Positions 15,216 through 60,948 of a stretch of 64,000 nt of DNA are shown in pieces. The translations under genes and the position numbers were made by a program. Location: positions 1,674,001 through 1,738,000 of the forward strand of contig CP082844.1 of assembly GCA_019930625.1 (NCBI GenBank). The letters are read 5' to 3'. The number at the start of each line of letters is the position of its first letter. Within the stretch, counting starts at the first letter, position 1. Source of the stretch: Nocardia asteroides (GTDB lineage Bacteria; Actinomycetota; Actinomycetes; Mycobacteriales; Mycobacteriaceae). The notes beneath the pieces were generated by a model. It had not been told where the DNA came from. It ran no database searches and was given only the letters and a program-made list of their open reading frames with translations.

Positions 15216-16016
15216 TCAGGCGTTGACCGGAAGGGCAATGACGACCTCGCTCTCTTTCTCCGGCAGGTAGTGCGCCCGGAGCACGCGGCCCACCTGCACT
15301 TGGCCGACCCCGGCGGGTGCGAGGAACTTCGTCACCCGGGTGGCGAAGGTCGATCCGTCCGGCCGGGTGACCACCAAGCCGAGCTCGACCTCGGAGTGCC
15401 CCTCGCGGATCGTGCCGGTGACCGACAGCGACTGCACCACCGCCTGGGTGGCGATGCCGCGCTCGGCGATGTCGAGCTTGTGCCGGGTGGTCATGCCCTT
15501 GCGGATCAGGGACTCGTTGATCGCGTGCTGCGCGGCGGACGCGTCGCCGGACAGGTCGACCTCGACCTTGTCGGTCCGCCCGGGCAGGTAGCGCACCGGA
15601 AGCACCACCCCGGCGCGCAGCAGGGCCAGTTCGGTGAACGGCACGATCATCTTCGCGGAGGAGTGGAAGATCTTGCCGTCCGCGCCTTCGACGCTGAACT
15701 CGATGTGCACCTGCGGCTGGTCGTTGACGGTGACGCCGGTCTGCCGCACCGATCGGACCGTGCCGAGACCGGTGAGACCGGCACGGAACTCCGCGCTGTT
15801 GCGGCCGGTCAGTGCGATCATGATGCCTTCCCCGGTGAAGGCGAAGACCATGATGACCATGGTGACCGCGAGAATCGGCAGCGCCATCTCGATGCCGAGC
15901 CAGCCCATCCCGGAGGGCTCGTATGCACTGGTGGGGACGTAGGTTACGGCGCGGTAGACGTAGAGGCCGATCGCCGCGGCGGCGATAGCGAGGGCGGCGA
16001 GACGGATCTTGTTCAT
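15216..16016 (-). CDS. Membrane-anchored protein of unknown function (DUF3592-like)
   Basis: A 266-residue protein with two hydrophobic helices near the N-terminus (about residues 5-25 and 40-66). It continues with two similar beta-rich halves (about 82-160 and 170-262), each containing a pattern of the type T/S-V-x-S...V-x(E/L)-x-L-V...G-V-x-L-P-V-R/H-Y-L-P. That layout is like DUF3592 proteins, where the soluble part faces outside or sits at the membrane. I cannot assign a function. It sits between an LpqH-like lipoprotein and a PhoX phosphatase on the same strand, but strong hairpins on both sides suggest it is its own transcription unit. Confidence 0.7.
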   Translation of the reverse strand: MNKIRLAALAIAAAAIGLYVYRAVTYVPTSAYEPSGMGWLGIEMALPILAVTMVIMVFAFTGEGIMIALTGRNSAEFRAGLTGLGTVRSVRQTGVTVNDQPQVHIEFSVEGADGKIFHSSAKMIVPFTELALLRAGVVLPVRYLPGRTDKVEVDLSGDASAAQHAINESLIRKGMTTRHKLDIAERGIATQAVVQSLSVTGTIREGHSEVELGLVVTRPDGSTFATRVTKFLAPAGVGQVQVGRVLRAHYLPEKESEVVIALPVNA

Positions 16017-16112: not shown

Positions 16113-16643
16113 TCAGGCGCCGACGATGGACGAGCAGGCGAAGGTGATGTCGAACTTCGACGTCTTCGGCCCCGCCAGCGGGTTGGTCAGGTCGGGGGCG
16201 CCCACGCCCTCGCCGGTGATCTTGTAGGTGTTGCCGTCCTTCACGACCGCGGCGGAGCCGCCCGGCATGCCGTTGCCGAAGCCGACCGCGTAGGGCAGGC
16301 CGTTGTCGCCGCCCTTGCTGCCCGCGATCCCGACCGCCTGCACGGTGTCGGCGTCGGTGATGGTCGCGCTCACCGAGAGGTTGCCGTAGGCGGGGTTCTC
16401 GGCGTCGGTCAGCGCCAGCGCCAGGGTGCCGCCCTGCTTGGCGCAGGTGGTGGTGAACTTCGCGTCGAAGGCCTTGCCGTCGACCGAGGCGACCGACTTC
16501 CCCGCCGGGGCGGCCGGCTGCGCCGAAGAGGGCGCGGGCGCGGCCGGGGAGCTGCCCTTGCTGTCACCGCATCCGGTGAGCACCGCGACGGCGGCGGTGG
16601 CGGCGAAAGCGGCTGCGGCGAAGCGGAGCGAAGTGGCGTTCAT
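16113..16643 (-). CDS. LpqH-family (19 kDa antigen type) lipoprotein
   Basis: A 176-residue exported lipoprotein. It has a signal peptide with lipobox LTGC (C25), a Ser/Ala/Pro-rich linker (~30-50), and then a compact domain with two Cys (residues ~66 and 171) that probably form a disulfide. The order and motifs (A-G-K...V-D-G...C, NLSVSATITDADTVQAVGI) match the mycobacterial LpqH/LppE family, surface lipoproteins sensed by TLR2 whose primary function is unsettled. The ATG at 16643 starts directly at the signal peptide; the open frame upstream to 16799 is not family-like. Confidence 0.85.
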   Translation of the reverse strand: MNATSLRFAAAAFAATAAVAVLTGCGDSKGSSPAAPAPSSAQPAAPAGKSVASVDGKAFDAKFTTTCAKQGGTLALALTDAENPAYGNLSVSATITDADTVQAVGIAGSKGGDNGLPYAVGFGNGMPGGSAAVVKDGNTYKITGEGVGAPDLTNPLAGPKTSKFDITFACSSIVGA

Positions 16644-17022
16644 GATGTGTCCTTGTCGTCGGTGGGGCGGCGCCCCTGGTTCTTTTTCCCGGCCTTCGTG
16701 TTGGGCCGATGAGAGAAAGGTAGGAACGATTCGCGCTCTACCGATCCCAGGTTTCCGGCATTTACGCAGGTAGATGACTTGCGGCTGCACCTGACACAAC
16801 CTGGACCCCGCGTCCCGAACGCGGCGACACCTGCCGCTCGCGGGGCCGGGTCAGAACGCAGAAGGACCGGCCGCTCGGACCGGCCCTCTGGGTTCACTCG
16901 ACAGAGACAACGAGGACGGCCCGGCTCAAATGTGATGCAAATCACGTCCGATTTGTCCGATTACCGGTGCTCGCGGGTCAGTGATGATGCCTCACGTATT
17001 CGATCCACGAAACGGAGGACAT
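16644..17022. other. Divergent intergenic region with one imperfect hairpin
   Basis: This 379-base gap separates the LpqH-like gene (minus) from the MFS gene (plus) and must hold both promoters. I see no small gene. The only structured part is an imperfect inverted repeat at 16854-16895 (GAACGCAGAAGG... paired with ...CCTCTGGGTTC, two mismatches in the outer stem), with GGACCGGCC repeated directly inside. It could be a terminator remnant or a regulatory hairpin. Confidence 0.45.
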
Positions 17023-18435
17023 GTGACGACGGAGCGAGAAGTGACGTCCTGGAGAGAATTCCGAGACCACCTCGGCGTGGCGATCGTGCTGGCGGGCGGA
17101 GTGCTCGTCGGTGCGATCAACATCTATCTGGTAGGGAGCTTGTTGCCGAGCGCGGTCGCCGACATCGGCGGCGACAGGCTGTACGCGTGGAGTACGACGA
17201 TCTTCTCGGTCGCGCAGGTGGCCGGCACACTGGCGGTGAGCCGGATGCTGTCTCTTCGCGGCACGGTCGGCTCGTATCTGATCGGATTCGGGGTCTTCGC
17301 GGCGGGTTCGGTGGTGTGTGCGGTGAGTCCTGTCATGGCGGTGTTCCTGATCGGCCGCGGGGTCCAGGGGCTGGGCGCGGGACTGCTCACCGGATTGGGT
17401 TTCGCGGCAGTGTATGTCGCACTGCCACAGTCGCTGTGGGTACGCGGGACCGCATTGATCTCGGCCATGTTCGGCGTCGGCACCATCGTCGGCCCGGCTA
17501 TGGGGGGATTGTTCGCCCAGGTCGGTTTGTGGCGAGCCGCGTTCGTCGTCCTCGCCGTTGTGGGTGTGGCGGCAGCAGGTTCCGCGCCACGGGTCCTGCC
17601 CAAGAGTGACGACCGCCAGACCCCAGCACCGGTTCCGATCGTATCGCTGGCGCTGGTGGTCGGTGCCGCCACGGCGGTGAGCGTGGCCGGTGTTGTCTCA
17701 GGTGTCGCGGTGATGACGCTCGCGCTCGCGGTGGCCGTCGCTTCCGTGCTCGTGTTCCTGGCATGGGAAAGGCGTGCGGGGCAACGGATTCTCCCGGTCG
17801 CGACGTACCGCTCGGGCAGTCCGTTGCGGTGGGTGTATCTGACGATCGTCGTGCTGTCGGCCGGTGTGGGTGTGGAGATGTTCCTGCCCTTGTTCGGGCA
17901 ACGCCTGGCCGGCTTGCCTCCGGTCGTGGCCGGATTCTTCGGTGCCGCCTTGTCTCTGGCCTGGCCGGTGAGTCAGATGCTCGTCGCATCGGTGCAGCAG
18001 GAAGCCACGATCCGGCGACTTCGAGTTGCCGGTCCGCTGCTGCTGGCGACCGGATTCCTGGGCCTGGCGTTGCTACAACGCAGCCAGGTCTCCCTGCCGA
18101 TGATTCTGGCCTGGTTGCCGCTGCTTTTCCTGGCCGGGGCCGGCATCGGCATTGCCTGGCCACACTTGTCGGTGGCCGCGATGACCAGCGCTGCGGACCC
18201 AGAAGAAGGCCAGAAGGCCGCGGCAGCGATTGCAACGATCCTGACCATGTCGACAGCCTTCGGAGCCGCCGTCGCCGGTCTGCTGGTCAACCTCGGTGGA
18301 TCCTCGCTGGTCGACTCGGCCCGCTACCTACTGGTGGGATTCACCGCCATCGCCGCACTCGGCATCCTGACAGCACTTCGCGTGAACCACACGCCACATA
18401 TACCGGACCCCCGCAAAGACACCACTACGGTATAG
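17023..18435 (+). CDS. MFS transporter
   Basis: A 470-residue integral membrane protein of the major facilitator superfamily, with about 12-14 hydrophobic helices. The motif-A/B region is visible as GRGVQGLGAGLLTGLGFAAVY, with GTIVGPAMGGLFAQ (motif C, typical of drug/proton antiporters) after it. This suggests proton-driven export of a small molecule; the substrate is unknown. The GTG at 17023 is preceded by GGAGG (17014-17018) with a short 4-base gap; an ATG at 16981 is in frame but has no binding site. It stands alone between hairpins, so it is probably monocistronic. Confidence 0.85.
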   Translation: MTTEREVTSWREFRDHLGVAIVLAGGVLVGAINIYLVGSLLPSAVADIGGDRLYAWSTTIFSVAQVAGTLAVSRMLSLRGTVGSYLIGFGVFAAGSVVCAVSPVMAVFLIGRGVQGLGAGLLTGLGFAAVYVALPQSLWVRGTALISAMFGVGTIVGPAMGGLFAQVGLWRAAFVVLAVVGVAAAGSAPRVLPKSDDRQTPAPVPIVSLALVVGAATAVSVAGVVSGVAVMTLALAVAVASVLVFLAWERRAGQRILPVATYRSGSPLRWVYLTIVVLSAGVGVEMFLPLFGQRLAGLPPVVAGFFGAALSLAWPVSQMLVASVQQEATIRRLRVAGPLLLATGFLGLALLQRSQVSLPMILAWLPLLFLAGAGIGIAWPHLSVAAMTSAADPEEGQKAAAAIATILTMSTAFGAAVAGLLVNLGGSSLVDSARYLLVGFTAIAALGILTALRVNHTPHIPDPRKDTTTV

Positions 18436-18527
18436 CGCCAGCACAAAGCGGTACTTGAAGGTTCAGCGCATCGGTTGGTTTCTTGCCCTGCCGACGTGCA
18501 TAGCTCGTTCGGCAGCGAGCGATTTTG

Positions 18528-18560
18528 TTACCCCGGATAACGTGCTGTTATCCGGGGTAA
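18528..18560. terminator. Bidirectional hairpin terminator
   Basis: Perfect 14-bp arms TTACCCCGGATAAC (18528-18541) and GTTATCCGGGGTAA (18547-18560) with a 5-base loop, in the 324-base convergent gap between the MFS gene and the secreted-protein gene. I see nothing else in that gap. Confidence 0.8.
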
Positions 18561-18759
18561 TCCCGCCTGCGGCGATCCCGCCGCGGCCCGGGCGGTGAAG
18601 AACTCATCCCGTGCACCCTGTTCGGCTATCATCGCTGCCCGCAGGAGCGCGGGTCGCGACCGTTCGACACGACTCGCGAGTGATCCGCCAAAATCACCCC
18701 TGACATGCACTTTCACGCGCTCTGGCGATGTGCGGGGTTCGCTGGGAGACCAGCGTATT

Positions 18760-19263
18760 TCACCTGCCCTGGTTGGTGACGAACGCCTGTACGGCATCGA
18801 GGAACTCCGGGCCGCCCGCGGCGTATCCGCCGACGGTTCCACCGATCAGCACACCCACGGGGATGCTGACGCCCCATATCAGGGGCAGGCACGCCCCGAG
18901 GAGGCCGCCCACGATGGCACCTCCGACGACGCCGGGCATGTTCTTGTTGATCTGCTCCTTCAGCCGGTCGTAGGAGCTGATGTCTTCCAGCTGCGCGATA
19001 TCGTCTGCCGTCGGGGTCGAGGTCAGGGTGCCGCCGTCCGCATCGATGTGCTGCGCAATCGCGAGTGAACTCCCGTCGACGGCATCCCCTTGCGGCACTT
19101 CGGCGACCGCCGCTCCGTCGCCGGACTCGAGCACCACCACACCGTTCTCGGTCACCGCAGTCGGCTGCGTCGTTACGCTCGGCTCCGCATGGGCGCTTGC
19201 CGCAGTGATACCCACGGCCGCGATGGCCATGAAAGCGGCAGCAGTGATTCTCTCGAACTTCAT
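18760..19263 (-). CDS. Small secreted protein with glycine-zipper segment
   Basis: A 167-residue protein with an export signal (residues 1-26, cleavage after AHA), an acidic, Thr/Val-rich middle (27-95), a short charged helix (~96-110) and a hydrophobic Gly-rich segment (about 113-150: VVGGAIVGGLLG, VLIGGTVGGYAAGG) that could insert into a membrane or oligomerise. Similar small exported proteins are frequent in Nocardia and Rhodococcus without known function; glycine zippers occur in pore formers and outer-membrane proteins. No partner gene is evident; the divergent neighbour begins the CHAT operon. Confidence 0.7.
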   Translation of the reverse strand: MKFERITAAAFMAIAAVGITAASAHAEPSVTTQPTAVTENGVVVLESGDGAAVAEVPQGDAVDGSSLAIAQHIDADGGTLTSTPTADDIAQLEDISSYDRLKEQINKNMPGVVGGAIVGGLLGACLPLIWGVSIPVGVLIGGTVGGYAAGGPEFLDAVQAFVTNQGR

Positions 19264-19333
19264 TCTTCGAATCCCTCCACTCAGCTGCCCCTGATGGGCG
19301 GACCGATTCAGACCTTAGGCGTCGAATCCGATG

Positions 19334-19353
19334 GTGTGTGGTACGCCACACAC
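19334..19353. promoter_or_regulatory. Palindromic candidate operator in a divergent promoter region
   Basis: GTGTGTGG-TACG-CCACACAC: perfect 8-bp arms around TACG, in the 222-base gap between the secreted-protein gene (start 19263, minus) and the CHAT operon (start 19486, plus). It could bind a dimeric regulator of either or both; no regulator gene is adjacent. Confidence 0.4.
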
Positions 19354-19485
19354 GGTTCGGAGTCACTGCATTCCTGTGACCGGCTGGAGCAGTACTCCGC
19401 GCATGCAGTGCGACAGCGCCGAAGAATCCGCCATGAGCGGGCCGTGAACCCGCCGGGACCGAGGCGCGGCAAATACACTGCACGC

Positions 19486-20871
19486 ATGCGACGACCGCGC
19501 GCCATGGTGCTCGATGAGGTGTGGCGCAAGCTCGGCGGTGTCGAACCGCTCAGCGGCCCGCACGGCGGTCCGCTGCGCCGGACCGTGAAGCTTCTGCTCG
19601 ACCCGCTGGTGATCCGTCCCGTGCAGAATCCACTGTGCGCGGGGCCGATCCTGACCGCCGACGGCGCGGTGTTGCTGGAGGCGCGCATCCAGGCGGCGGC
19701 CGATGTGTTGCGGGCGACGGCGGCCTGGTTCACCGTGCTCAAGCAGGTGCGGCGCACGCTGCGGATCACCGAGGGGCATCCGCAGGATCTGTATTTCCAG
19801 CGTTGTTTCGAGTTGGCGACCACCATGGGAATGCCGGATCCGGCGCGGGCGCGCGCGGTCGCGGAGGACGCGTTGCGCGAGATCCACGAGTACACCGCGG
19901 GACGCACCACGCAGGCGCTGAAGGAGTACCTGACCGACCGCGCACGGGAGCGCGAGTTGGCCGGGTTACTCGAGCTGGCCTGGCGGCGGCGCCCACCGAC
20001 CGTGCCGCAGGGCGCCGACCACGCCGCCGAGGTGGACGCCCTGCTGGAGGCCTGCGCGACGGCACGCCTGGGCCGGGACGCCGCCGACGGACAGCCCGCA
20101 CTGGACCGGCTGGTGGCCGACCATGCCGGTACACACACCGGAATCCGGCTGTGGCAGGACACCTCCGGCCGTTCGGCTCAGGAACTGGGTCTGACCGCGC
20201 ATCCGGTGCCGCTGCGCCCGGCGATCGGCTCCTCGGCCTCCAAATCGACCCTCGGGCTCCCCTTCGATCGCACCGTGTACGAGCGCGTGTTCACCGTGCT
20301 GCAGGCCTCCACCGACCGCGCGGAGCTGCCGCCGATCCCCGAGCTGGTCGACGCCGAGATCGCCCGGAGCTGTGCACCGTGGGCGCTGCTGGACGAGTCG
20401 CTGCGCGTGGCCGCGACGGCGGGAACCGCGCTGGCGACCGGCTTGGCGCCCATCGATCACCACCGCGAGCCGACGAGCCGACCGCGGCCGCGTCCGGCCG
20501 AAACGGAATCGGGCGCGGCACGATCCACGGCGCACCAGGCGGTCAACAGCCGCTGGCAGCGGGAGGCGTACGTCCTACAGGCCCGGCGACTGGTGGTGTG
20601 CGCCGACGCCGCCGAGCCGCCGACGGGTCCGCTGGCCGCCATCGCCGCCGAGCTGATCACGCCGTGGCGGCCATATCTGCGCCGGTTGTGGGTTCGCCTG
20701 CACGGCAGGGATGTCCGGGAATTCGCGATCTACGATCCGGACGAGCTGTGGGATCTGCTCGACGGCGTGGCGCGGTCGGTCATCCTGGACCATCGCACGC
20801 GAGTCAAGCGGGCGCTGAGCGTCCGGGTGAACGCGGGTGAGCCGGACGCGGCGGAATCGAAGGCGAGCTGA
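19486..20871 (+). CDS. Unknown protein, first gene of the TPR-CHAT operon
   Basis: A 461-residue soluble protein I do not recognise. It is rich in Ala, Leu and Arg and looks almost entirely helical, with a Pro/Arg-rich break near residues 325-340 and no membrane segment or signal peptide. ATG 19486 lies 6 bases after TACACT (19474-19479), consistent with a leaderless start; ATG 19504 is an alternative. Its stop overlaps the next start (TGATG), so it is the head of a four-gene unit with a second unknown protein, a TPR protein and a CHAT protease. In such a unit it may be a sensor, target or adaptor for the protease; this is inference. Confidence 0.75.
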   Translation: MRRPRAMVLDEVWRKLGGVEPLSGPHGGPLRRTVKLLLDPLVIRPVQNPLCAGPILTADGAVLLEARIQAAADVLRATAAWFTVLKQVRRTLRITEGHPQDLYFQRCFELATTMGMPDPARARAVAEDALREIHEYTAGRTTQALKEYLTDRARERELAGLLELAWRRRPPTVPQGADHAAEVDALLEACATARLGRDAADGQPALDRLVADHAGTHTGIRLWQDTSGRSAQELGLTAHPVPLRPAIGSSASKSTLGLPFDRTVYERVFTVLQASTDRAELPPIPELVDAEIARSCAPWALLDESLRVAATAGTALATGLAPIDHHREPTSRPRPRPAETESGAARSTAHQAVNSRWQREAYVLQARRLVVCADAAEPPTGPLAAIAAELITPWRPYLRRLWVRLHGRDVREFAIYDPDELWDLLDGVARSVILDHRTRVKRALSVRVNAGEPDAAESKAS

Positions 20872-21893
20872 TGAGCACCACCGTACGCATCCGCCGTCGA
20901 AACGACCTGTGGATCATCGCGCCGGACGACGCTCCTACCGTCGTGGACGACACGGCCGGGATGGACGTACTCATCCTCGAAGTGGCGGGCGGGCATTTGA
21001 CCTGGAGCCTGCTCGCCGGGCAGCCGACCCCGGCGGCGGTGATCGATGATCTCGTCCTCGCACAGGAGTGGATCTGGGCGGTGTACGGCCCGGAGGTGTC
21101 CCTCGCACTCGACGAAACACCGGGCGATGAAGGGGAATACCCGGCCGAACCCGCGCTGCCGGACATCACCGCGCGCGCTTGGCGGCTCGGCTACGCCCGT
21201 TGGGCGGCGCGCTGGTGGCCCGCATCGACATTGGACGGCATCGCCCCGCTGGACGAGCGCCTGCTGGAAGACGAGATCGCCGCCTTGAGCGAGGAATGCG
21301 ACTTGATCGTCGACGGGGCCGACGCCGTGGCCGAGGAGCGCACATTCGTCGAGACGCTCGGGCGCGCGGAGGACTACGCGCTGGCCGCCGGACCGGCCAC
21401 GGCCGTCGCGCCCGGCGCGCTGGTCGTGGCCAGAGGCACCGCGGGGTGGGACTGGAATCGCTGCCCGCCAGGTCTGCTCGACGCCTCGGAACGCGCCGTG
21501 TCCTGGGAAGTGGTGCGCGAGGCCGGTGCGACGATCGTGCGGGTGAGCGCGGTCGCCGCACCGTTCTCGGTCGCGGACGTCCCCGCGCACCTGCACCCCC
21601 GGGCCGGAATCCGCACCGCGGCCGACGCCGTCGACGTGCCATTGCTCCGCGATGGCGATCTCTGGCAGGCCGAGACCGCGGCTCCGGCCGGTGCGGAAGC
21701 GGGCGTCACCGTACGCGTCTACGTGCCGGGCGTCGGCGTGGACGAGCCGGAGCCGGATGCCGCGTCCCGCCGGGCACGGATTCGCGAGCTGGTCACGGCG
21801 CGGCTGCGCCGGACGGCCGACGCACCCGGCAACCCCGTCGACACGCTTCTGCTGGCGGAAATCGCCGCAGCAGCATCGGATTCGGATTTCTGA
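20871..21893 (+). CDS. Unknown acidic protein, second gene of the TPR-CHAT operon
   Basis: A 340-residue acidic, Trp-rich soluble protein with no recognised domain. The N-terminal ~75 residues form a possible alpha/beta unit (RIRRRNDLWIIAPDD, then WSLLAGQPTPAAVIDDLVLA). The middle is helical (~95-175), and the C-terminal third looks beta-rich with a short helical tail. No signal peptide or membrane segment. Its ATG shares one base with the upstream TGA, and the next start follows its stop by 1 base, so it is co-translated with its neighbours. Function unknown. Confidence 0.75.
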   Translation: MSTTVRIRRRNDLWIIAPDDAPTVVDDTAGMDVLILEVAGGHLTWSLLAGQPTPAAVIDDLVLAQEWIWAVYGPEVSLALDETPGDEGEYPAEPALPDITARAWRLGYARWAARWWPASTLDGIAPLDERLLEDEIAALSEECDLIVDGADAVAEERTFVETLGRAEDYALAAGPATAVAPGALVVARGTAGWDWNRCPPGLLDASERAVSWEVVREAGATIVRVSAVAAPFSVADVPAHLHPRAGIRTAADAVDVPLLRDGDLWQAETAAPAGAEAGVTVRVYVPGVGVDEPEPDAASRRARIRELVTARLRRTADAPGNPVDTLLLAEIAAAASDSDF

Positions 21894-21894
21894 C

Positions 21895-23421
21895 ATGGCC
21901 GACGAGACCCCCGACGACGGCCGCGAACTGCTCGCCGCGGGCGCGGCCGCCTACACCCGCGGGGACACGGCCGAGGCCCAACGCCTGTTCGAGGACGCCG
22001 CCGAGCGAACCACCGGCGACATCCGGCTCGGCGCGATCATCAACGCCGCGAGCATGGCCGACGAACTCGGCGACCACGCCGCCTCGCTCGCCCTCTACCG
22101 CTCGGCGCTGGCCGAAATGCCGGAGCACGCACCGCGATTGCGGCCCAACGCCCTGGTCAACATGTCCCAGGCGCTACAACACCTCGGTGAACTCCACCAA
22201 GCGCAGGCGGCGCTGGAGCAGGCGCGGGCCTTGCTCGCCGATAACACCGACGCCGACCTGGGCGTGCTGCGCGTTGCTTGTTCGCTCTCCCTGACCGCCG
22301 TCGCGTTGCACCGGCAGAACTGGGCCTACGCCGCCGAACTGGCCACCGAATCGCTGGAGGCGGCGCGTCGTTTCGCGCCGCAACTGGCCGGCCATCCGCT
22401 GATGAATCTCGCGGCCACCTACTTCGAGACCGGACGCCACGACTTGGCCGTCGATTTCGCGCGGCAGGCGCTTGCCGCGTTCGAGTCGGCGGGCGATCGC
22501 AACGCGGTCGCCGAGACCGAACAGAATCTCGCCACCATGCTCGTGCGCCTCGAGCGGTACGACGAGGCACAGGCCCCGCTGCGATCCAGTCAGCGATATT
22601 TCGAACAGGCGGGGCTCGCGCACCGAGCCGGAATCGGTCTCAAGACCATCGGATTTCTGGCTGAGGGCCGCGGCGAACTGACGGATGCGCGGGATCTCTA
22701 CGCGCGGAGCCTGGCGTATTTCATCGAGTCGGGCGCCGTGCTCGACGCGGCCGATCTGCGCATCCGTTCGGCCACCGCGGCTTTCAAGACGGGCCGAGTA
22801 GGCGAATGCGAGCAACTGCTGGCGGAAGCGTTCGCGATCTACGCCGAGCGCGGCCTCGGACTGCACTGCGCCCAGCTCGATTTCTGGCACGCGACGCTGC
22901 TGGAAGGCGCGATCGAAGCGGCCGAAGCGCCGACGGCACAGCTGCTCACGCAAGCGGTCGGCATCGCCGTTCCGGCCGCGCTGGCCATCGACGCCGTGCG
23001 CTACACGCTGCCGAACGGCACGCAGCGCGAACAGTGGAAACGCCGGATCGCCGACCCGGCGATGCGGTTGGCCTTCCGCTTCGCCTATCTGTCCGGCAAC
23101 GGGCTCCTTGTCGCCGATCTGATCGAGACACAGAGTGCTGGAACGGCTTTAGCGCTCGATCGGGCCGAGCGGGTGACCCCTGCGCGGCTACCGCTCGAAT
23201 TGCCGGACCCGCCCGAGGACTTCACCGATCATCCCGGCAGCGCCGCACTCCAACTGGGCGCCGCCCTGGCCGAGGTCGCCGCCGAGGTGGGCCTGCCGGT
23301 CGCGCCGCCGCCGCGCCTGGCACTGGCCGCGGAGGGACGGATCGCACTCGAACCGTTCATCGCCGCCGCCGAACAGCGTTACGGCCGGGTGATCCGCGAC
23401 GATCGGGTGCTGACGGTATGA
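21895..23421 (+). CDS. TPR-repeat protein
   Basis: A 508-residue soluble protein made mostly of tetratricopeptide helices. Repeats are visible through at least residues 10-340 with the usual A-x-x-x-G/Y-x-x-G...A pattern, for example LLAAGAAAYTRGDTAEAQRL, LATMLVRLERYDEAQAPLR and GRGELTDARDLYARSLAYF. The last ~110 residues are Pro/Ala-rich and less regular. TPR solenoids bind peptides or whole proteins. The stop overlaps the start of the CHAT gene (ATGA, 23418-23421). TPR proteins paired with CHAT proteases commonly hold or activate the protease, as in the type III-E CRISPR Craspase and several Aravind-lab conflict systems. Here it is the obvious regulator or sensor candidate. Confidence 0.88.
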   Translation: MADETPDDGRELLAAGAAAYTRGDTAEAQRLFEDAAERTTGDIRLGAIINAASMADELGDHAASLALYRSALAEMPEHAPRLRPNALVNMSQALQHLGELHQAQAALEQARALLADNTDADLGVLRVACSLSLTAVALHRQNWAYAAELATESLEAARRFAPQLAGHPLMNLAATYFETGRHDLAVDFARQALAAFESAGDRNAVAETEQNLATMLVRLERYDEAQAPLRSSQRYFEQAGLAHRAGIGLKTIGFLAEGRGELTDARDLYARSLAYFIESGAVLDAADLRIRSATAAFKTGRVGECEQLLAEAFAIYAERGLGLHCAQLDFWHATLLEGAIEAAEAPTAQLLTQAVGIAVPAALAIDAVRYTLPNGTQREQWKRRIADPAMRLAFRFAYLSGNGLLVADLIETQSAGTALALDRAERVTPARLPLELPDPPEDFTDHPGSAALQLGAALAEVAAEVGLPVAPPPRLALAAEGRIALEPFIAAAEQRYGRVIRDDRVLTV

Positions 23422-24674
23422 CGCGACCGACCGTGCACATCCGCATGGCGGACGCGGGAGACGTCTACGTGTCGTGGCGGTGGACCGATGACAACGCGCC
23501 CCGCGGCGTGGGCGTGCTGCCGGAGGAGGCGGTCGTGCGGGCGGTCGGACTGCTCGCCGACGCGCTTCCACGACCCGCCGAGTCCGGTGGTCTCGAGCAG
23601 GCTCTCGCCTCCGGCGCATTCGCCGACTATGAGCGTGAGTACTCGATGGCACAGGCGCTTTCCCGCGCGCTGCTGCCCTACGGCCTGGCCGCGCAGCTCT
23701 ACGAACTGTGGCAGCGCGGCGTGCGCCCGCACATCCGGTTGCAACCGTCACCGCGTCTTGCCCAGGTGCCGTGGGAACTCATCGCGCCGGACCGCGACGT
23801 CCGGCTGATCGACATCGCCGACGTCAGCCTGGTCGCTCCGGCGAGTGTCGTGCAGGCGCCGGGACGGATCGCGCGCACATGGGCCGAGACCGCCGCGAGC
23901 CCGGTCGTCGCGGTGCTGGATCCGCGAGTTCCCGGGTTCCGCGCCGATTCCACGCTCGGCTCGGTACTCGGCCGGATGACCGCCGAGGCGCCACTCGCGC
24001 AACGGATGGCCGGTTACGCCGCGAACGATCGACTGCGGCCCGCGGTGCGAAGCCCGGTGGACGCCTTCCGGCGCACCGATGTCGACCGCGTCTGGCTCGG
24101 CGCCGCCCTGCGCGCCGGCGCGAGTCGCTTGATCTACGTCGGGCATGTCACCGCCGCCGCGCCCGAATCCGGCCGTAGCGAGGACGCCGAATTGCACCTC
24201 GCCTGCACCGCCGACGCCATCGGCTTCGCCGAGCCATCCCGCACGCACCGCCCGCTCTCGGCCAAGGACCTGCTGCTCGGCACGTACACCCTCGACACCG
24301 ATCCCGTGGCAGGAGCACAACTGTGGCCGATGCCGAGCCGGGTCGCGCTGATCGCCTGCGAGAGCGGCGGCGACCTGCGCTTCAGCGAGGCGCTGGGCCT
24401 GACTGCCGCGATGATCACCGGCGGCGCGGAACTGGTCACGGCCAGCAGATGGGCACTGCCTACCGATTTCGCCTTCCAGCGCATCGCGGGCGCACCGCCG
24501 CAAGCGCGGCCGCTCCAGGAGGCGGTCTGCGCCATCGACGGGTCGCACGAACAACCCGACCCGGTCACCGCGCTCGCCCAGTGGCAGCGCGGACGGCTTG
24601 CGGCGTGGCGTGACACCGGTGAAATCGAGTACTCCCCCGTGCTCTGGGCGGCATTCGCCACCGTGTGCGCCTGA
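23418..24674 (+). CDS. CHAT-domain (caspase-like) protease
   Basis: A 418-residue protein whose C-terminal two thirds match the CHAT clan of cysteine proteases. A LAQVPWELI strand is at ~114-122, the catalytic His is at 243 in LIYVGHV, and the catalytic Cys is at 314 in VALIACESGG, followed by LGLTAAMITGGAELVTASRWALP (~327-348), the usual core continuation. Both dyad residues are intact, so it is probably an active protease. The first ~110 residues are a separate helical domain. Translation is coupled to the TPR gene by a 4-base overlap. CHAT proteins are known in programmed cell death and antiphage systems; the target here is unknown. Confidence 0.88.
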   Translation: MTRPTVHIRMADAGDVYVSWRWTDDNAPRGVGVLPEEAVVRAVGLLADALPRPAESGGLEQALASGAFADYEREYSMAQALSRALLPYGLAAQLYELWQRGVRPHIRLQPSPRLAQVPWELIAPDRDVRLIDIADVSLVAPASVVQAPGRIARTWAETAASPVVAVLDPRVPGFRADSTLGSVLGRMTAEAPLAQRMAGYAANDRLRPAVRSPVDAFRRTDVDRVWLGAALRAGASRLIYVGHVTAAAPESGRSEDAELHLACTADAIGFAEPSRTHRPLSAKDLLLGTYTLDTDPVAGAQLWPMPSRVALIACESGGDLRFSEALGLTAAMITGGAELVTASRWALPTDFAFQRIAGAPPQARPLQEAVCAIDGSHEQPDPVTALAQWQRGRLAAWRDTGEIEYSPVLWAAFATVCA

Positions 24675-24893: not shown

Positions 24894-25151
24894 ATGCGCT
24901 ACTACGCCGTCTACGACAACGACGGAAACATCGCCACCATCCTCGGCCAACCCGACGACGCGCCGCCCCTGCGCCCCGCCGCCTTCGACCGGGGACAGCG
25001 GATCATCGAACTGGTTCTACCGGAAGGGGTCCTGGACCCCGCCGACCCGGACAACCTGACCGCCCTGCTCGCCCTGGTCGCGGACCGCCGAGCCGAGGCG
25101 ACGGCTTCGCACCGGCCTTCCCGCACCCCTACCGACATGGGCGCCCGCTGA
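24894..25151 (+). CDS. Small hypothetical protein
   Basis: An 85-residue soluble protein beginning MRYYAVYDNDGNIATILGQP, a beta-hairpin-like start, followed by a Pro-rich middle and a helical C-terminal part. The ATG is preceded by GAGGAG with a good spacer. It lies 219 bases after the CHAT gene on the same strand, far enough for its own promoter; I see no other gene in that gap. Function unknown. Confidence 0.6.
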   Translation: MRYYAVYDNDGNIATILGQPDDAPPLRPAAFDRGQRIIELVLPEGVLDPADPDNLTALLALVADRRAEATASHRPSRTPTDMGAR

Positions 25152-56412: not shown

Positions 56413-57990
56413 TCATTTGGTGCGCAGGAAATGCGCCTGACGTTCCGGCTCCTGCGGCAACATGTCCAGATCGAGCTGCCACGCGCTGCCGGTCCACGGA
56501 TCGAACAGCGGTGTGCCGCCGACCGTCGGCAGATGACGGCACGACTGTGACACCATCGCCACGGTGGTGTCGGCCGAATCGGATTCGTTGGCGCCGACGA
56601 TCACCACGGACAATCCGATCAGCTCGCCGCGCGTGATCAACGCGCCGATCCGCTGTGCGTCCGAGCTCTGGTAGCCGTGCGGGAAATCCGCGGCCAACAG
56701 GACCCGATGCTCGCTGGGCGGCGTGAACGCACCACTCGTGTAGGCCAACTCGGCCAGCTCGGCCGCATCCACCAGCGCTTGCAACCGCGCCGAGATGTCG
56801 GCGTGGTCGGTGATCGGCGGGCCGTTCAGCACGGGAGCGAGCAGGCCGGTGAAGCCGCTGAACGCGTCGGTCAGGTCGATGATGTCCAGCAGCGTCCGCC
56901 GCTGCGGCGCCGTGGCCAGCAGCCGCGCCAGCAACGCGCCCACCACGGGCGCGACCGCACGGGTCGATTCGGTATCGATCCACAGCGGCCGATTCAGCGG
57001 AATCGGAACGCAATACGGAATGCGCAGCGGCCCCCGGTCGAGCGCGTACAACTCGCCGAGACGGATGCCGTCGCTCGGCGCGGACGGCTTGTCCCAGGCG
57101 GGCGAGTCCCAGGAGGCCAGAGCGGGCGGCAGTACCTGGTCCGCCTCGGCGAGCTCACGCATCAGTTGCTCGGCGTCGCGCTGGTGGTTGCGCTCGGCGA
57201 TGTCGATCAATTCGTCGTGGCGTTGCTGCGCGTCACGACGTGCCTGCTCGGCTGCCGGAGTGTTCCTGGTCGCCGGATCGGACACCGCCAGCGACAGTTC
57301 GTGATCCAACCGCTTGGCCGCGTACTCGCGCGCCGAGGTCAGCGCGGCGGCCGACCGCGCCGCGTCCTCGAACACCATCCACAACCGTTCCAACCCGTGA
57401 CCGACTTCCAGCGGCACACCGGCGGTGGCGATCTGCGCGTCACCCGCCAGGGGACCGGCCATGGTGTGCGTACCGGGCTGGTCGGATTGCTCCGGCTCCG
57501 GGGACGCATCGTCGATCTCCACACCGTGGGCCGTGAGCAGCACGGCCAACCCACCCGCGTAACCCTGGCCGACGGCCCGCAGCTTCCAGGCGGGGCCGCG
57601 CCGGTACACCTCGAGGCAGATCAACGCCGTCTCACCGGACGACGGGGTGATCGCGAATTCGGCGGTCACACTGTCGTTCTCGGACAGGGCCGCCGTAACC
57701 GGCCCGAGTCCCTCGGCCCGCGCGGGCGCGGCCGGGTCAGCGCTGACCACCAAGAGCACGGCCTTCGCGTCGGCGCGCACCTCGGTGAGCGTGATCGTGA
57801 CCCCGTCGGCCGCCAAGGCGACCCCCGGCGTGGCGGGCTGGTTGTAGAAGACGAAATCGTCGCTGGAGAACACCTTCAGGTTCTCCGCGACCACCAGCGC
57901 GGAAACATCGAGGGCCGCCTCGGCTTTCGCGCTGAAACGAACGACCTCACCGGTCAGCGGGATGTTCTGACCGGCTCTCAGTTGAATCAC
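56413..57990 (-). CDS. TerD-domain protein with a large C-terminal extension
   Basis: A 525-residue protein. Residues 1-170 form a TerD/CABP domain (IQLRAGQNIPLTG, DDFVFYNQPATPGVAL, CLEVYRRGPAWKLRAVGQGYAGGL), the calcium-binding unit of tellurite-stress systems. A helical/coiled-coil region (~215-320) and a domain (~335-515) follow that recalls the FtsK-like ATPase modules described in Ter systems (RIPYCVPIPLNRPLWIDTE) but without a Walker A motif that I can see. GTG 57990 lies 28 bases after the upstream TerD stop; both are one operon. Confidence 0.82.
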   Translation of the reverse strand: MIQLRAGQNIPLTGEVVRFSAKAEAALDVSALVVAENLKVFSSDDFVFYNQPATPGVALAADGVTITLTEVRADAKAVLLVVSADPAAPARAEGLGPVTAALSENDSVTAEFAITPSSGETALICLEVYRRGPAWKLRAVGQGYAGGLAVLLTAHGVEIDDASPEPEQSDQPGTHTMAGPLAGDAQIATAGVPLEVGHGLERLWMVFEDAARSAAALTSAREYAAKRLDHELSLAVSDPATRNTPAAEQARRDAQQRHDELIDIAERNHQRDAEQLMRELAEADQVLPPALASWDSPAWDKPSAPSDGIRLGELYALDRGPLRIPYCVPIPLNRPLWIDTESTRAVAPVVGALLARLLATAPQRRTLLDIIDLTDAFSGFTGLLAPVLNGPPITDHADISARLQALVDAAELAELAYTSGAFTPPSEHRVLLAADFPHGYQSSDAQRIGALITRGELIGLSVVIVGANESDSADTTVAMVSQSCRHLPTVGGTPLFDPWTGSAWQLDLDMLPQEPERQAHFLRTK

Positions 57991-58018
57991 GTTGTCTGCC
58001 CTGCTGTCGCGCTGCGGG

Positions 58019-59434
58019 TCAACCGTTGACGAGGAACCGGCCGAGCTGCGGCACCGCCTCGCCCGGATGCTTTGCCTGGAAACCCTCGCCGAGCGCCTGC
58101 AATTTCCAGTCGCTGCCCACCCGGTACAACTTGGACATCGCCATCGCGGTGAACGGCATGCCACCGGCCAGCGTGTATCTGGCCAACTCGCCGTTGTTCG
58201 TCCCGTCGACCAGGCGGCAGAACGCGTTCTGCACCTGCTCGAAGGTGTGGCCCTTGTAGGAGGTCACGACGAACACCAGCGTGGTGATGTGCGGGGGGAT
58301 GCGGGTCAGGTCGACCAGGATCATCTCGTCGTCGCCCGCGCCCTCGCCGGTGAGGTTGTCGCCCTGGTGGCGGATGGAGCCGTCCTTGGACGTCAGCTGA
58401 CCGTAGTAGGCGACGTCCACCGGGTTCATGTCGGCGAACATGATGACCGAGGCGTCGAGGTCGATGTCGACCGTGCGGTTGCCGAACATGCCGCGGCTGC
58501 GCACCGGGTCCCAGCCGAGACCCATCTTGACGAAGGTGAGCGCGGCGCCTTCCTTGCGCAGCGTGACCCGCTGACCCTTGACCAGGCTGACCGGGCGGTC
58601 CTTGCTCAGGCTGACCTCGGCGGGCGCCTGCTGCGGCTGCGGCGGCGCGGGCTGGCCGGGCGGCGGGTAACCGGGGCCGGGGCCGGGCGGCGGCGGGTAA
58701 CCCGGACCGGGCGGTGGGTAACCCGGGCCGCCTTGTGGCGGTTGACCCGGCCCACCCTGCGGCGGATACCCGGGACCGGGCGGCGGCGGGTATCCACCGG
58801 TCGGCGCGTACTGCGATGCCTGCGGCTGGGTCGGGTACGCCGGGGTGGTCGGCGGCTGCTGCACCGGCGGCTGCTGTACCGGCGGCGGAGGCGGCGGGGC
58901 CTGCGCGGGCTGCGGAGCCTGGGCGGGGGAATCGTCGACGGTGACGCCGTGATCGGTGACCAGCGCGGCGAAACCGCCCGCGTAGCCCTGTCCGACCGCA
59001 CGCACCTTCCACGAGCCCTGGCGACGGTAGAGCTCGAGCGCGATCACGATCGACTCGGTGTTCAGCCCTTCGATCCGGTACTCGTACAGCTGGTTACCGG
59101 CCGCGTCCGACACGATCGCCGTGGGGGCGGGGAAGCTGCCGAAATTGCTGTTCGCGTCGTCCAGCGTGATCACCGCGCGAATCTGGTCGATGTCGGCGGG
59201 CACCGCGTTCAACGACACCGCCAGCGACGCGGGCTGGCCGGCGGGTGCGGGCTGAAGGTTGACGCCGGGGCCGCTGGGCTGGTTGAAGAAGACGAAGTCG
59301 GCGTCGGAACGGACCTTGCCCCGCTCGGTGACCAATAGCGCCGACAGATCCGCCGGCGCCGAGAGCTGGATGGAGATCACCACGTCATTGGTGGCCAGTG
59401 GACCGTTCTGACCCTTGGCGAGTGTTGCGGACAA
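58019..59434 (-). CDS. Double TerD-domain protein with proline-rich linker
   Basis: A 471-residue protein with two TerD domains. The first (~1-165) has DADFVFFNQPSGPGVNL and LELYRRQGSWKVRAVGQGYAGGF. A linker of about 100 residues (~180-285) is made of Gly-Tyr-Pro-Pro repeats, and the second TerD domain (~295-471) has DASVIMFADMNPVDVAYYGQL and DDEMILVDL. TTG 59434 (LSATLAKGQNGPL) is the family N-terminus, with GAAGGG just upstream; the longer frame adds nothing recognisable. It is divergent from three AIM24 genes, with 147 bases between. Confidence 0.85.
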   Translation of the reverse strand: MSATLAKGQNGPLATNDVVISIQLSAPADLSALLVTERGKVRSDADFVFFNQPSGPGVNLQPAPAGQPASLAVSLNAVPADIDQIRAVITLDDANSNFGSFPAPTAIVSDAAGNQLYEYRIEGLNTESIVIALELYRRQGSWKVRAVGQGYAGGFAALVTDHGVTVDDSPAQAPQPAQAPPPPPPVQQPPVQQPPTTPAYPTQPQASQYAPTGGYPPPPGPGYPPQGGPGQPPQGGPGYPPPGPGYPPPPGPGPGYPPPGQPAPPQPQQAPAEVSLSKDRPVSLVKGQRVTLRKEGAALTFVKMGLGWDPVRSRGMFGNRTVDIDLDASVIMFADMNPVDVAYYGQLTSKDGSIRHQGDNLTGEGAGDDEMILVDLTRIPPHITTLVFVVTSYKGHTFEQVQNAFCRLVDGTNNGELARYTLAGGMPFTAMAMSKLYRVGSDWKLQALGEGFQAKHPGEAVPQLGRFLVNG

Positions 59435-59581
59435 GTTCGACCCTTCGCTTGTCGGTGCGTTCGCCTGACACTCTACGAGAAACGCGCCGCGCGCCGCTTG
59501 TACTGAACGGACGCGCTGCCCCGACACCCCCGTGAGTATCGGTTAGGGTGACGGCACGCAAATGGAATGCGGCGATCCCCC

Positions 59582-60238
59582 GTGTTCCCGATCAAGACAG
59601 CAGGCAAACACTCCATGGCGCAACTGTTCGAGCAATCGAAGAAGGTGATCGAGGCTCATCTGGCCGGAACCAGCCTCCGCGCGATCTCCGGTTCGATGAT
59701 TGCCTACGAAGGAAACGTGCAGTTCAAGGCGGCCGGTTTCGGCGGAGGCGATGGTGTGGTCGCCGGGCTGAAGCGCAAGGCCACCGGTGAGAAATTGTCG
59801 CTGATGGAGTGCGGCGGTCACGGTCGGGTGTTCTTCGCGGTCAACGGCCAGAACGTCACCGTCGTCGACTTGAACAACGAGACGTTGCAGGTGGAGTCGC
59901 AACAACTGCTCGCGTTCGCCGGAAACCTGCGCACCGACGTGCGTTTCGCCGGATTGCGCGGTGCGTCCAGCGGGCAGGGCCTGTTCACGACGACCGTGTC
60001 CGGCCAGGGGCAGGTCGCGCTGCTCTCCGCGGGCGGTCCGCTCATCCACCTGGAGGTTTCCCCGCAGTACCCGCTGATCGTGGATCCGGACGCGTTCGTC
60101 GCGGCGCGCGGCAACCTCAACCAGTCCTTCGTCTCGGACGTGTCGTGGCGCAGTTTCGTCGGCCAGGACGCGGGTGAGGCGTTCTCGCTGCGCTGGGACG
60201 GTCAGGGCGTGGTGTTGATCCAACCGGCGGAACGGTAG
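59582..60238 (+). CDS. AIM24-family protein (copy 1)
   Basis: A protein of about 218 residues with the beta-sandwich of the AIM24/TIGR00266 family (FAGNLRTDVRFAG, FTTTVSGQGQVALLSAGG, PLIVDPDAFVAARGNLNQSF). The human and yeast relatives are mitochondrial; bacterial members often lie with ter genes. The start is uncertain: GTG 59582 (MFPIKTAG) or ATG 59567; no clear binding site. TAGGGT at 59544-59549 may be its -10 box. Confidence 0.82.
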   Translation: MFPIKTAGKHSMAQLFEQSKKVIEAHLAGTSLRAISGSMIAYEGNVQFKAAGFGGGDGVVAGLKRKATGEKLSLMECGGHGRVFFAVNGQNVTVVDLNNETLQVESQQLLAFAGNLRTDVRFAGLRGASSGQGLFTTTVSGQGQVALLSAGGPLIHLEVSPQYPLIVDPDAFVAARGNLNQSFVSDVSWRSFVGQDAGEAFSLRWDGQGVVLIQPAER

Positions 60239-60246
60239 GGCGAGCG

Positions 60247-60948
60247 GTGTTCGAAAAGGTCAACAGCAAAGTCGTCAAAGTAAACGTCGGAATGGCGGGC
60301 GGGGTGGTCGCGCGCAACGGCGCGATGCTGTTCTACACCGGCGATATTTCGTTTGCGCCCCACCAGATTCCGGGAGCGCAGGGTATGGGCGGCATGGGCG
60401 GGCTGATGGGTCTCGCGGGCCGCGCCATGGCAGGCGAGCACGAGCGCACCATGTTGGCGCAGGGCAACGGCGAGGTGCACTACGGATTCGCTGGGCTGGA
60501 GGTCCAGGTGGTGCACATGCAGCCGGGCGCCGCGTTGCGGGTCGAGGCTTCGCGCCTGCTGGCCAACACCGCCGGGTTGCAGAGTTCGGTGGTCTCGGTG
60601 ATGAGTTCGGGCGGTGGAAGCGGTGGTGGCGGCGGCCTGATGGGAGCGCTGCGTGGCGCCGCCTCAGGGGCGTTGACCGGACAGGGCATGTTCACCACCC
60701 AGCTGTCCGGGCAGGGCGCGGCGGTGCTGCTCGCGCACGGCGGATTCCTGGAACTGCAAGTGGGCGGCCCGAATCCGATCGTGGTCGACCCGCAGGCTTT
60801 CGTCGCCGCCTACGGCAACGTGCAGACCGAGCTCAAGACGGCGCTGAGCTGGCGAGACGCCGTGGGCCGCGGTTCCGGCGAGGCCATGCAGTTGCATTGC
60901 ACCGGGCAGGGCGTCGTTTACGTGCAGGCCTCCGAAGAGAAGTTGTGA
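60247..60948 (+). CDS. AIM24-family protein (copy 2)
   Basis: A 233-residue AIM24 protein starting with GTG 60247, 8 bases after copy 1. The shared core is visible (MLFYTGDISF, MFTTQLSGQGAAVLLAHGG, PIVVDPQAFVAAYGNVQTEL). It has inserts rich in Gly and Met (~43-60 and ~118-140). Its stop overlaps the start of copy 3 (GTGA). Confidence 0.88.
   Translation: MFEKVNSKVVKVNVGMAGGVVARNGAMLFYTGDISFAPHQIPGAQGMGGMGGLMGLAGRAMAGEHERTMLAQGNGEVHYGFAGLEVQVVHMQPGAALRVEASRLLANTAGLQSSVVSVMSSGGGSGGGGGLMGALRGAASGALTGQGMFTTQLSGQGAAVLLAHGGFLELQVGGPNPIVVDPQAFVAAYGNVQTELKTALSWRDAVGRGSGEAMQLHCTGQGVVYVQASEEKL

Follow-up and report, generated by a model that had tools for sequence, protein, structure and literature searches.

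A TPR-CHAT protease operon of Nocardia asteroides linked to an LpqH-family lipoprotein, the M266 protein and a shared promoter-region element

In the genome of Nocardia asteroides (GCA_019930625.1), we analysed a 64-kb stretch of contig CP082844.1 (positions 1,674,001-1,738,000, forward strand), hereafter the window, whose own coordinates are used. Four plus-strand genes in it encode two proteins of no recognised family (U1 and U2), a TPR protein and a CHAT peptidase. A sequence-only reading had delimited these as a four-gene unit, in which U1 and U2 overlap by 1 base, U2 and the TPR gene are separated by 1 base, and the TPR and CHAT genes overlap by 4 bases. Its coordinates and strands were exact. 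Its boundary was too narrow, as two upstream minus-strand envelope genes and a shared promoter-region element also belong, giving six genes. The features are as follows.

19486..20871, plus strand: U1, 461 amino acids (aa), predicted all-helical, no recognised family, disordered at residues 331-343
20871..21893, plus strand: U2, 340 aa, predicted beta-rich, no recognised family, disordered at residues 153-175
21876..21890, plus strand: C-terminal tail SDSDF of U2, terminal residue Phe or Tyr in 113/113 relatives
21895..23421, plus strand: TPR protein, 508 aa
23418..24674, plus strand: CHAT peptidase, 418 aa, with the His243 codon at 24144-24146 and the Cys314 codon at 24357-24359
16113..16643, minus strand: LpqH-family lipoprotein, 176 aa (PF05481, 1.8e-24)
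15216..16016, minus strand: M266, 266 aa, with a pair of hydrophobic segments close to the N-terminus
16719..16749, plus strand: shared promoter-region element GGTAGGAA-N10-CCTACCGATCCCA, 1 mismatch, its 12-base core exact at 16738-16749
19474..19479, plus strand: TACACT, a -10-like box 6 bases 5' of the U1 start, an analogous box being kept in relatives
16750..19473, no strand assigned: insert outside the module, with an MFS transporter gene (17023-18435, plus strand) and a gene for a small exported protein (18760-19263, minus strand)

The assignment of a TPR-CHAT pair with an intact catalytic dyad was borne out. In Pfam, the CHAT protein matched PF12770 (6.3e-8; 32.8 bits against a curated cut-off of 24) and the TPR protein matched TPR_12 (5.1e-17). 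His243 and Cys314, on whose conservation in homologues the sequence-only reading had staked its proposal, were kept in 117/117 aligned CHAT sequences, a set that includes near-duplicates and three divergent relatives. The TPR and CHAT parts formed a single frame in two loci, one of Nocardia (L068) and one of Streptomyces (L156, 978 aa), which suggests that the two proteins act as one Csx29-type enzyme. Against solved chains, CHAT gave no sequence match at E<=1, and hence no sequence link to Csx29 was detected. NCBIfam and PADLOC scans contributed nothing for U1, U2 or CHAT. By hydropathy, none of these three proteins had a membrane segment, and no signal peptide was found in CHAT; the TPR protein slightly exceeded the threshold at two places within its repeats or helices and was read as soluble.

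That the two upstream proteins are unrecognised also held, as Pfam, NCBIfam and fold searches assigned no family to U1 or U2 (no accepted Pfam match and no NCBIfam match for either). U1 was predicted to be all-helical (pLDDT 86.8), with its disordered stretch in a region of strongly varying length among relatives. It contains many invariant Arg and Lys residues, its mean identity over 21 Nocardia loci was 0.69, and its nearest named relatives were Nocardia proteins. In relatives, the ATG at the U1 start is conserved and a TANNNT-like box precedes it by 6 bases, which supports this start; in 17 aligned Nocardia lipoprotein-U1 gaps, the box was TAACCT-like and lay 6 bases before the conserved ATG. 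We suspect that the U1 transcript is leaderless. U2 was predicted to be beta-rich (pLDDT 86.2), with an Ig/FnIII-like part. Its last residue was Phe or Tyr in every aligned sequence and its end mostly ESDY or DSDF, so that, judged from the alignment, the tail is a free acidic-aromatic C-terminus under constraint. Some TPR proteins bind C-terminal peptides, which makes it a reasonable idea, by analogy, that the U2 C-terminus docks to its TPR partner, plausibly in the TPR groove.

The four genes occurred as strict partners. The same 60 genomes (36 of the genus and 24 of other genera) were searched with each of the four proteins, and all four genes were found in 28 of the 36 Nocardia genomes. U1, U2 and CHAT were absent from the other eight (G010, G012, G013, G018, G019, G022, G028 and G035), three of which gave only short and weak TPR matches, like those in other genera, and no genome of the 24 from other genera held U1, U2 or this CHAT. 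The possibility, raised beforehand, that U1 and U2 might mostly occur without the TPR-CHAT pair is thus not what we saw. The 20 Nocardia stretches examined at the level of single genes all had the order U1-U2-TPR-CHAT; genes in fetched loci were called with an ad hoc script, so that starts are approximate and some genes uncalled. Over 21 Nocardia loci, the pairwise identities computed for each of the four genes correlated with each other (r 0.86-0.91), as expected of co-inherited genes; about vertical descent we claim nothing beyond this mutual correlation.

Across the phylum, a U1 profile matched 11 of 396 genomes and 2 of 236 genera, the second genus being Mycobacterium; within the family, it matched 108 of 401 genomes in 7 of 31 genera. 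Among named genome contigs, 463 stretches encoded a U1 relative. Eighty were kept, all of them Mycobacterium, Mycolicibacterium, Mycobacteroides or Mycobacteriaceae records, and 75 of these showed the permuted order TPR-CHAT-U1-U2, the other five having a contig end near the absent gene. Of 148 Mycobacterium genomes, 98 had a U1 match; the 94 with a CHAT match were a subset of these. The four genomes with U1 only were G455 (an 84%-complete assembly), G546, G547 and G571 (partial U1), and some of the 94 CHAT-positive genomes carried the module in pieces (for example, U1 in G478 and G492, and both U1 and CHAT in G576). Loci L184 (G571), L185 (G546) and L186 (G547) were decayed modules with only U1, U2 or TPR fragments left.

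Six plasmid records matched U1, one from Nocardia farcinica and five from Streptomyces megaplasmids; three of the latter were read and had the Nocardia gene order. A co-occurrence across Nocardia and Streptomyces, as had been envisaged, therefore stood for Nocardia. It did not stand for Streptomyces, where five megaplasmid records were all, and the set is found mainly in Nocardia, Rhodococcus-like genera and Mycobacterium. On the N. farcinica record (NZ_LN868939.1, L158), a 2.66-Mb "plasmid 2", the module adjoins a 686-aa gene, the lipoprotein and M266, like the chromosomes of relatives, and this record may represent part of the chromosome. In two genomes of genus g276 (L180:10474-15937 and L181:1509-6973), genes for an AhpC-like peroxiredoxin and a flavin reductase lay between TPR and CHAT, the families being named for L180 and L181 being judged by gene lengths.

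Within the genus, U1, U2, TPR, CHAT, the LpqH-like lipoprotein and, nearly always, M266 were inherited together. The lipoprotein is a member of the LpqH (Myco_19_kDa) family; it matched LpqH structures (4zjm, 1.7e-6; 7fds, 2.9e-6) and carries near its N-terminus what we read as a lipobox (LTGC). M266 had no Pfam match and, beyond its two N-terminal hydrophobic segments, is probably cytoplasmic. The lipoprotein gene, which M266 follows, lay divergently upstream of U1 in 20 of 22 Nocardia loci, a count that includes one record twice (L158 of N. farcinica and L064 of G020, which agree in length and match coordinates); in L055 and L056, it lay outside the fetched stretch, farther away on the same contig. 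Of the 36 genus genomes, all 28 that hold the operon also hold the lipoprotein, and 27 of these hold M266; the other eight lack both. This linkage and co-occurrence led us to reject the four-gene boundary. At least one non-module gene of the window surroundings was shared by 11 of the 20 Nocardia stretches and none by the other nine, in all of which the lipoprotein adjoined U1. The lipoprotein thus stayed constant amid changing neighbours, indicating that the module moves or persists as a block.

In the window, the insert with the MFS transporter and small exported protein genes sets the lipoprotein and U1 2.9 kb apart, and the link is therefore hidden at this locus. The two closest relatives searched, G007 and G025, have longer inserts (about 12 kb and about 7 kb between lipoprotein and U1), so that U1 is cut off from the shared element in this clade.

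Among 89 mycobacterial loci (as with the Streptomyces loci, a count that includes near-duplicates), the LpqH-like gene was on the same strand and upstream of TPR in 77 and overlapped it in one. It was not found in 11, eight of which lay near contig ends. In 37 of the 89 loci, a relative of M266 was encoded between CHAT and U1 on the other strand. Single flank genes of three reference loci recurred in 1 to 44 of the 89. Other genera of the family retained the lipoprotein (L171-L174 and L176-L182). In the three Streptomyces loci, neither an LpqH homolog nor M266 was detected by these profiles, and other small membrane proteins lay nearby, with DUF3592 (marginal, L155) and DUF6585 domains.

One element was common to the module promoter regions of Nocardia, Rhodococcus-like genera, mycobacteria and Streptomyces megaplasmids. 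It was seen on aligning the 17 Nocardia lipoprotein-U1 gaps; its core is 12 bp (CTACCGATCCCA). For the window copy, with its 1 mismatch, the expected count was 0.00. The core was exact in 102 of 114 loci (80/89 mycobacterial, 19/22 Nocardia and 3/3 Streptomyces) and within one mismatch in 112 (88, 21 and 3, respectively); ten shuffled cores were found in 0 of 114 loci. In mycobacteria, 77 of the 78 loci with a called LpqH gene had the core upstream of it, and in 86 of 89 loci a one-base variant (CTACCGAACCCA) preceded U1 by about 44-120 bp, so that both halves of the permuted locus carry the element. A reversed-pattern control gave 0 hits in 1.54 Mb. The core persisted in two of the three decayed mycobacterial loci.

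An exact 13-base pattern gave 14 hits in nine genomes, five at the module, five upstream of a DUF4870 gene and four elsewhere; its reversed control gave one. The DUF4870 membrane gene is orthologous in five Nocardia genomes, including this one (L189, L191, L192, L199 and L200). This second location of the element means that the module may be part of a small regulon of envelope genes. Among genomes without the module, the exact pattern gave one scattered hit in G010 and none in G018. Mycobacterium G456 also gave no hits with the exact 13-mer, which is uninformative since the mycobacterial sites read carry G at the pattern's first C. A search of the open-licence literature for the element returned only unrelated papers and named no regulator.

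Relatives of the module proteins were also found with other partners. A second CHAT gene, 44-45% identical, was present in three Nocardia genomes (L052, L053 and L054), standing with only a TPR gene in L052 and with two other unrecognised genes in L053 and L054. At L054:4201-15758 (G008), the CHAT relative, TPR and two unrecognised genes were followed by AAA+, radical SAM and FHA genes. A relationship of U1 to the unrecognised genes beside CHAT in L053 and L054 was rejected (hhalign E 0.51). U2 gave a weak local match to those genes over 93 columns (P 0.0086; score 28.2, with 30 column shuffles reaching 19.25 at most), which is suggestive at best.

The CHAT and C14 families share a caspase-type fold. 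At L175:6285-15292, in another genus of the family (G786), relatives of U1 (67 bits) and U2 (84 bits) followed a C14 caspase gene (PF00656, 1.1e-5; PADLOC caspase, 7.2e-13). Downstream was a ThiF-type E1 protein (E1-E2, 7.5e-21; for its JAB-like part, the score fell short of the Pfam cut-off). Two further unrecognised proteins and a 267-aa protein also belong to the cassette, which is preceded by a conjugation-gene fragment; neither a CHAT nor a TPR gene was recognised at this locus. This cassette is possibly a second type of caspase module. That U1 and U2 accompany both CHAT and a C14 caspase argues that they work with caspase-type proteases.

The architecture recalls several known systems. 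Craspase is the TPR-CHAT precedent (portions of PMC9729208). In CASP/Craspase, as described in portions of PMC10028731, activated Csx29 cuts Csx30 once, and Csx30 inhibits a sigma factor with binding motifs in its own locus. The present module has in common with these type III-E systems (Cas7-11, Csx29, Csx30, Csx31 and CASP-sigma) a TPR and a CHAT protein with a His/Cys dyad, neighbouring unrecognised genes as candidate substrates, and DNA elements within its own locus. It differs from Craspase in that TPR and CHAT are mostly separate genes and that lipoprotein and membrane proteins are linked to it. No CRISPR repeats were found at window positions 8000-34000 (two repeat families lacked regular spacing), no gene of Cas7-11 size was among the 60 window gene calls (longest, 948 aa), and no sigma-factor gene was recognised. 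As to counterparts of Csx30 and Csx31, U1 and U2 matched no family in Pfam or NCBIfam.

Cell-death operons in which a CHAT protease or caspase accompanies a bacterial gasdermin exist, and the present locus resembles them as a small operon with a caspase-type protease beside possible substrates; PADLOC gave no gasdermin match for the four proteins and ten neighbours, the presence of a gasdermin model in the library being unconfirmed. NTP-dependent conflict systems (Kaur et al. 2020, PMC7159879, in the portions drawn on here) likewise combine co-operating actinobacterial protease, TPR and unrecognised-domain proteins, and the CHAT relative of L054 adjoins AAA+, radical SAM and FHA genes. Unlike vWA-MoxR and GTPase-centric conflict systems, the present locus has no vWA, MoxR, STAND or GTPase gene by Pfam among the four proteins and ten neighbours, and the main text of PMC7159879, in the portions consulted, never uses the word CHAT. 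The upstream lipoprotein clearly falls within the LpqH/19-kDa family (PF05481), in a subfamily tied to the CHAT module. In the open-licence literature searched, no description was found of the LpqH-CHAT link or, with PMC7159879 and PMC8195603 consulted in part, of the set as a whole, consistent with the earlier view that it is undescribed. CHAT and TPR-CHAT are already known; the envelope-linked module of six genes, the protein families of U1 and U2, and the element have, as far as we have seen, not been described.

The explanation we tentatively prefer is that a six-gene co-regulated module couples the cell envelope to a TPR-gated CHAT protease, by a Craspase-like logic without CRISPR. The module genes and envelope genes are apparently switched on together. 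U1 and U2 would be the envelope-responsive sensor and substrate of the TPR-gated CHAT, with U2 perhaps docking by its invariant acidic-aromatic C-terminus, plausibly into the TPR groove, and U1 as a putative core scaffold or a substrate with a cuttable disordered linker. An envelope signal passing through the lipoprotein and M266 would relieve inhibition, CHAT would then cut U1 or U2 at one or a few positions, and cleavage might alter the expression of element-marked envelope genes, arrest growth, or both. Four points weigh against this explanation. U1 and U2 have no recognisable fold relative; the module is dispensable, given that some mycobacterial copies are broken or remnants; the envelope partners vary, M266 relatives being recognised in 37/89 mycobacterial loci and LpqH homologs in 0/3 Streptomyces loci; and in this strain the element lies 2.7 kb from U1.

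The strongest competitor, which we consider unlikely, is anti-phage abortive infection, in which U1 and U2 would sense infection, the unleashed CHAT would kill or stop the cell, and the envelope proteins would be entry sensors or effectors. CHAT and caspase proteases act in defence, and the patchy presence and remnants of the module, its occurrence on Streptomyces megaplasmids, and the L175 cassette, where a divergent U1/U2 pair accompanies a C14 caspase and a protein of E1-E2 type next to a conjugation-gene fragment, agree with such a role, as does the Craspase precedent (portions of PMC10028731 and PMC9729208). A fixed chromosomal site was considered as an argument against defence and was weakened by the nine of 20 Nocardia stretches that share no neighbour, which raises this explanation somewhat; the other 11 do share neighbours, which counts the other way. 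However, PADLOC had no match for the four proteins and no telling one for the ten neighbours, among which only an ABC ATPase gene matched ATPase models. No U1 relative was found on viral contigs and no CHAT relative in phage records, and the regulation in common with the lipoprotein and the DUF4870 gene points to the envelope.

Alternatively, U1, alone or with U2, would be both the transcription regulator of CTACCGATCCCA and the CHAT substrate, making a self-contained protease-gated regulon. The element travels with the module into Streptomyces megaplasmids (3/3 read), where only U1, U2, TPR and CHAT are recognisably in common with Nocardia, and U1 is helical with many invariant Arg and Lys residues; CASP offers a precedent, its locus encoding a sigma factor that has sites within that locus (portions of PMC10028731). 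We nevertheless regard this as improbable, as no DNA-binding domain was recognised, the element is just as well explained by a regulator or sigma factor from another locus, and the genomes without the module scanned for it numbered two (G010 and G018), with the exact 13-base pattern only. The version that joins this idea to the envelope, in which a lipoprotein/M266 signal would trigger caspase-like cleavage of U1 (perhaps with U2), the regulator acting at CTACCGATCCCA, and so reprogramme the envelope, is a long shot; if true, Nocardia and Mycobacterium would share a bacterial signalling pathway of caspase type, with a sister version that relies on a true C14 caspase and an E1-like protein. Equally improbable as U1 being the regulator is a housekeeping role in envelope assembly or lipoprotein processing, with CHAT as a maturation protease for the lipoprotein or M266 and no part in death or alarm: the strong conservation of U1 and the linkage to lipoprotein and M266 speak for it, but the module is absent from 8/36 genus genomes and about one third of the 148 Mycobacterium genomes, and CHAT, having no signal peptide or membrane segment, would not meet an exported lipoprotein.

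Elsewhere in the window, an 85-aa frame 3' of CHAT (24894-25151) had a match in three close relatives (L055-L057) and no Pfam match, and positions 56413-60948 hold a gene run that we take, from the starts of its genes, to resemble tellurium-resistance TerD proteins.

LpqH-type lipoproteins are well-known mycobacterial antigens whose own role in the bacterium is unclear, and co-occurrence genome by genome, together with the shared promoter-region element, ties one LpqH subfamily to a caspase-like protease and two unrecognised protein families, as a concrete candidate pathway in a large group of bacteria from soil and clinical sources. The module is also a TPR-CHAT system free of CRISPR, with candidate substrates at hand, and its short DNA element can serve as a marker of its regulon.

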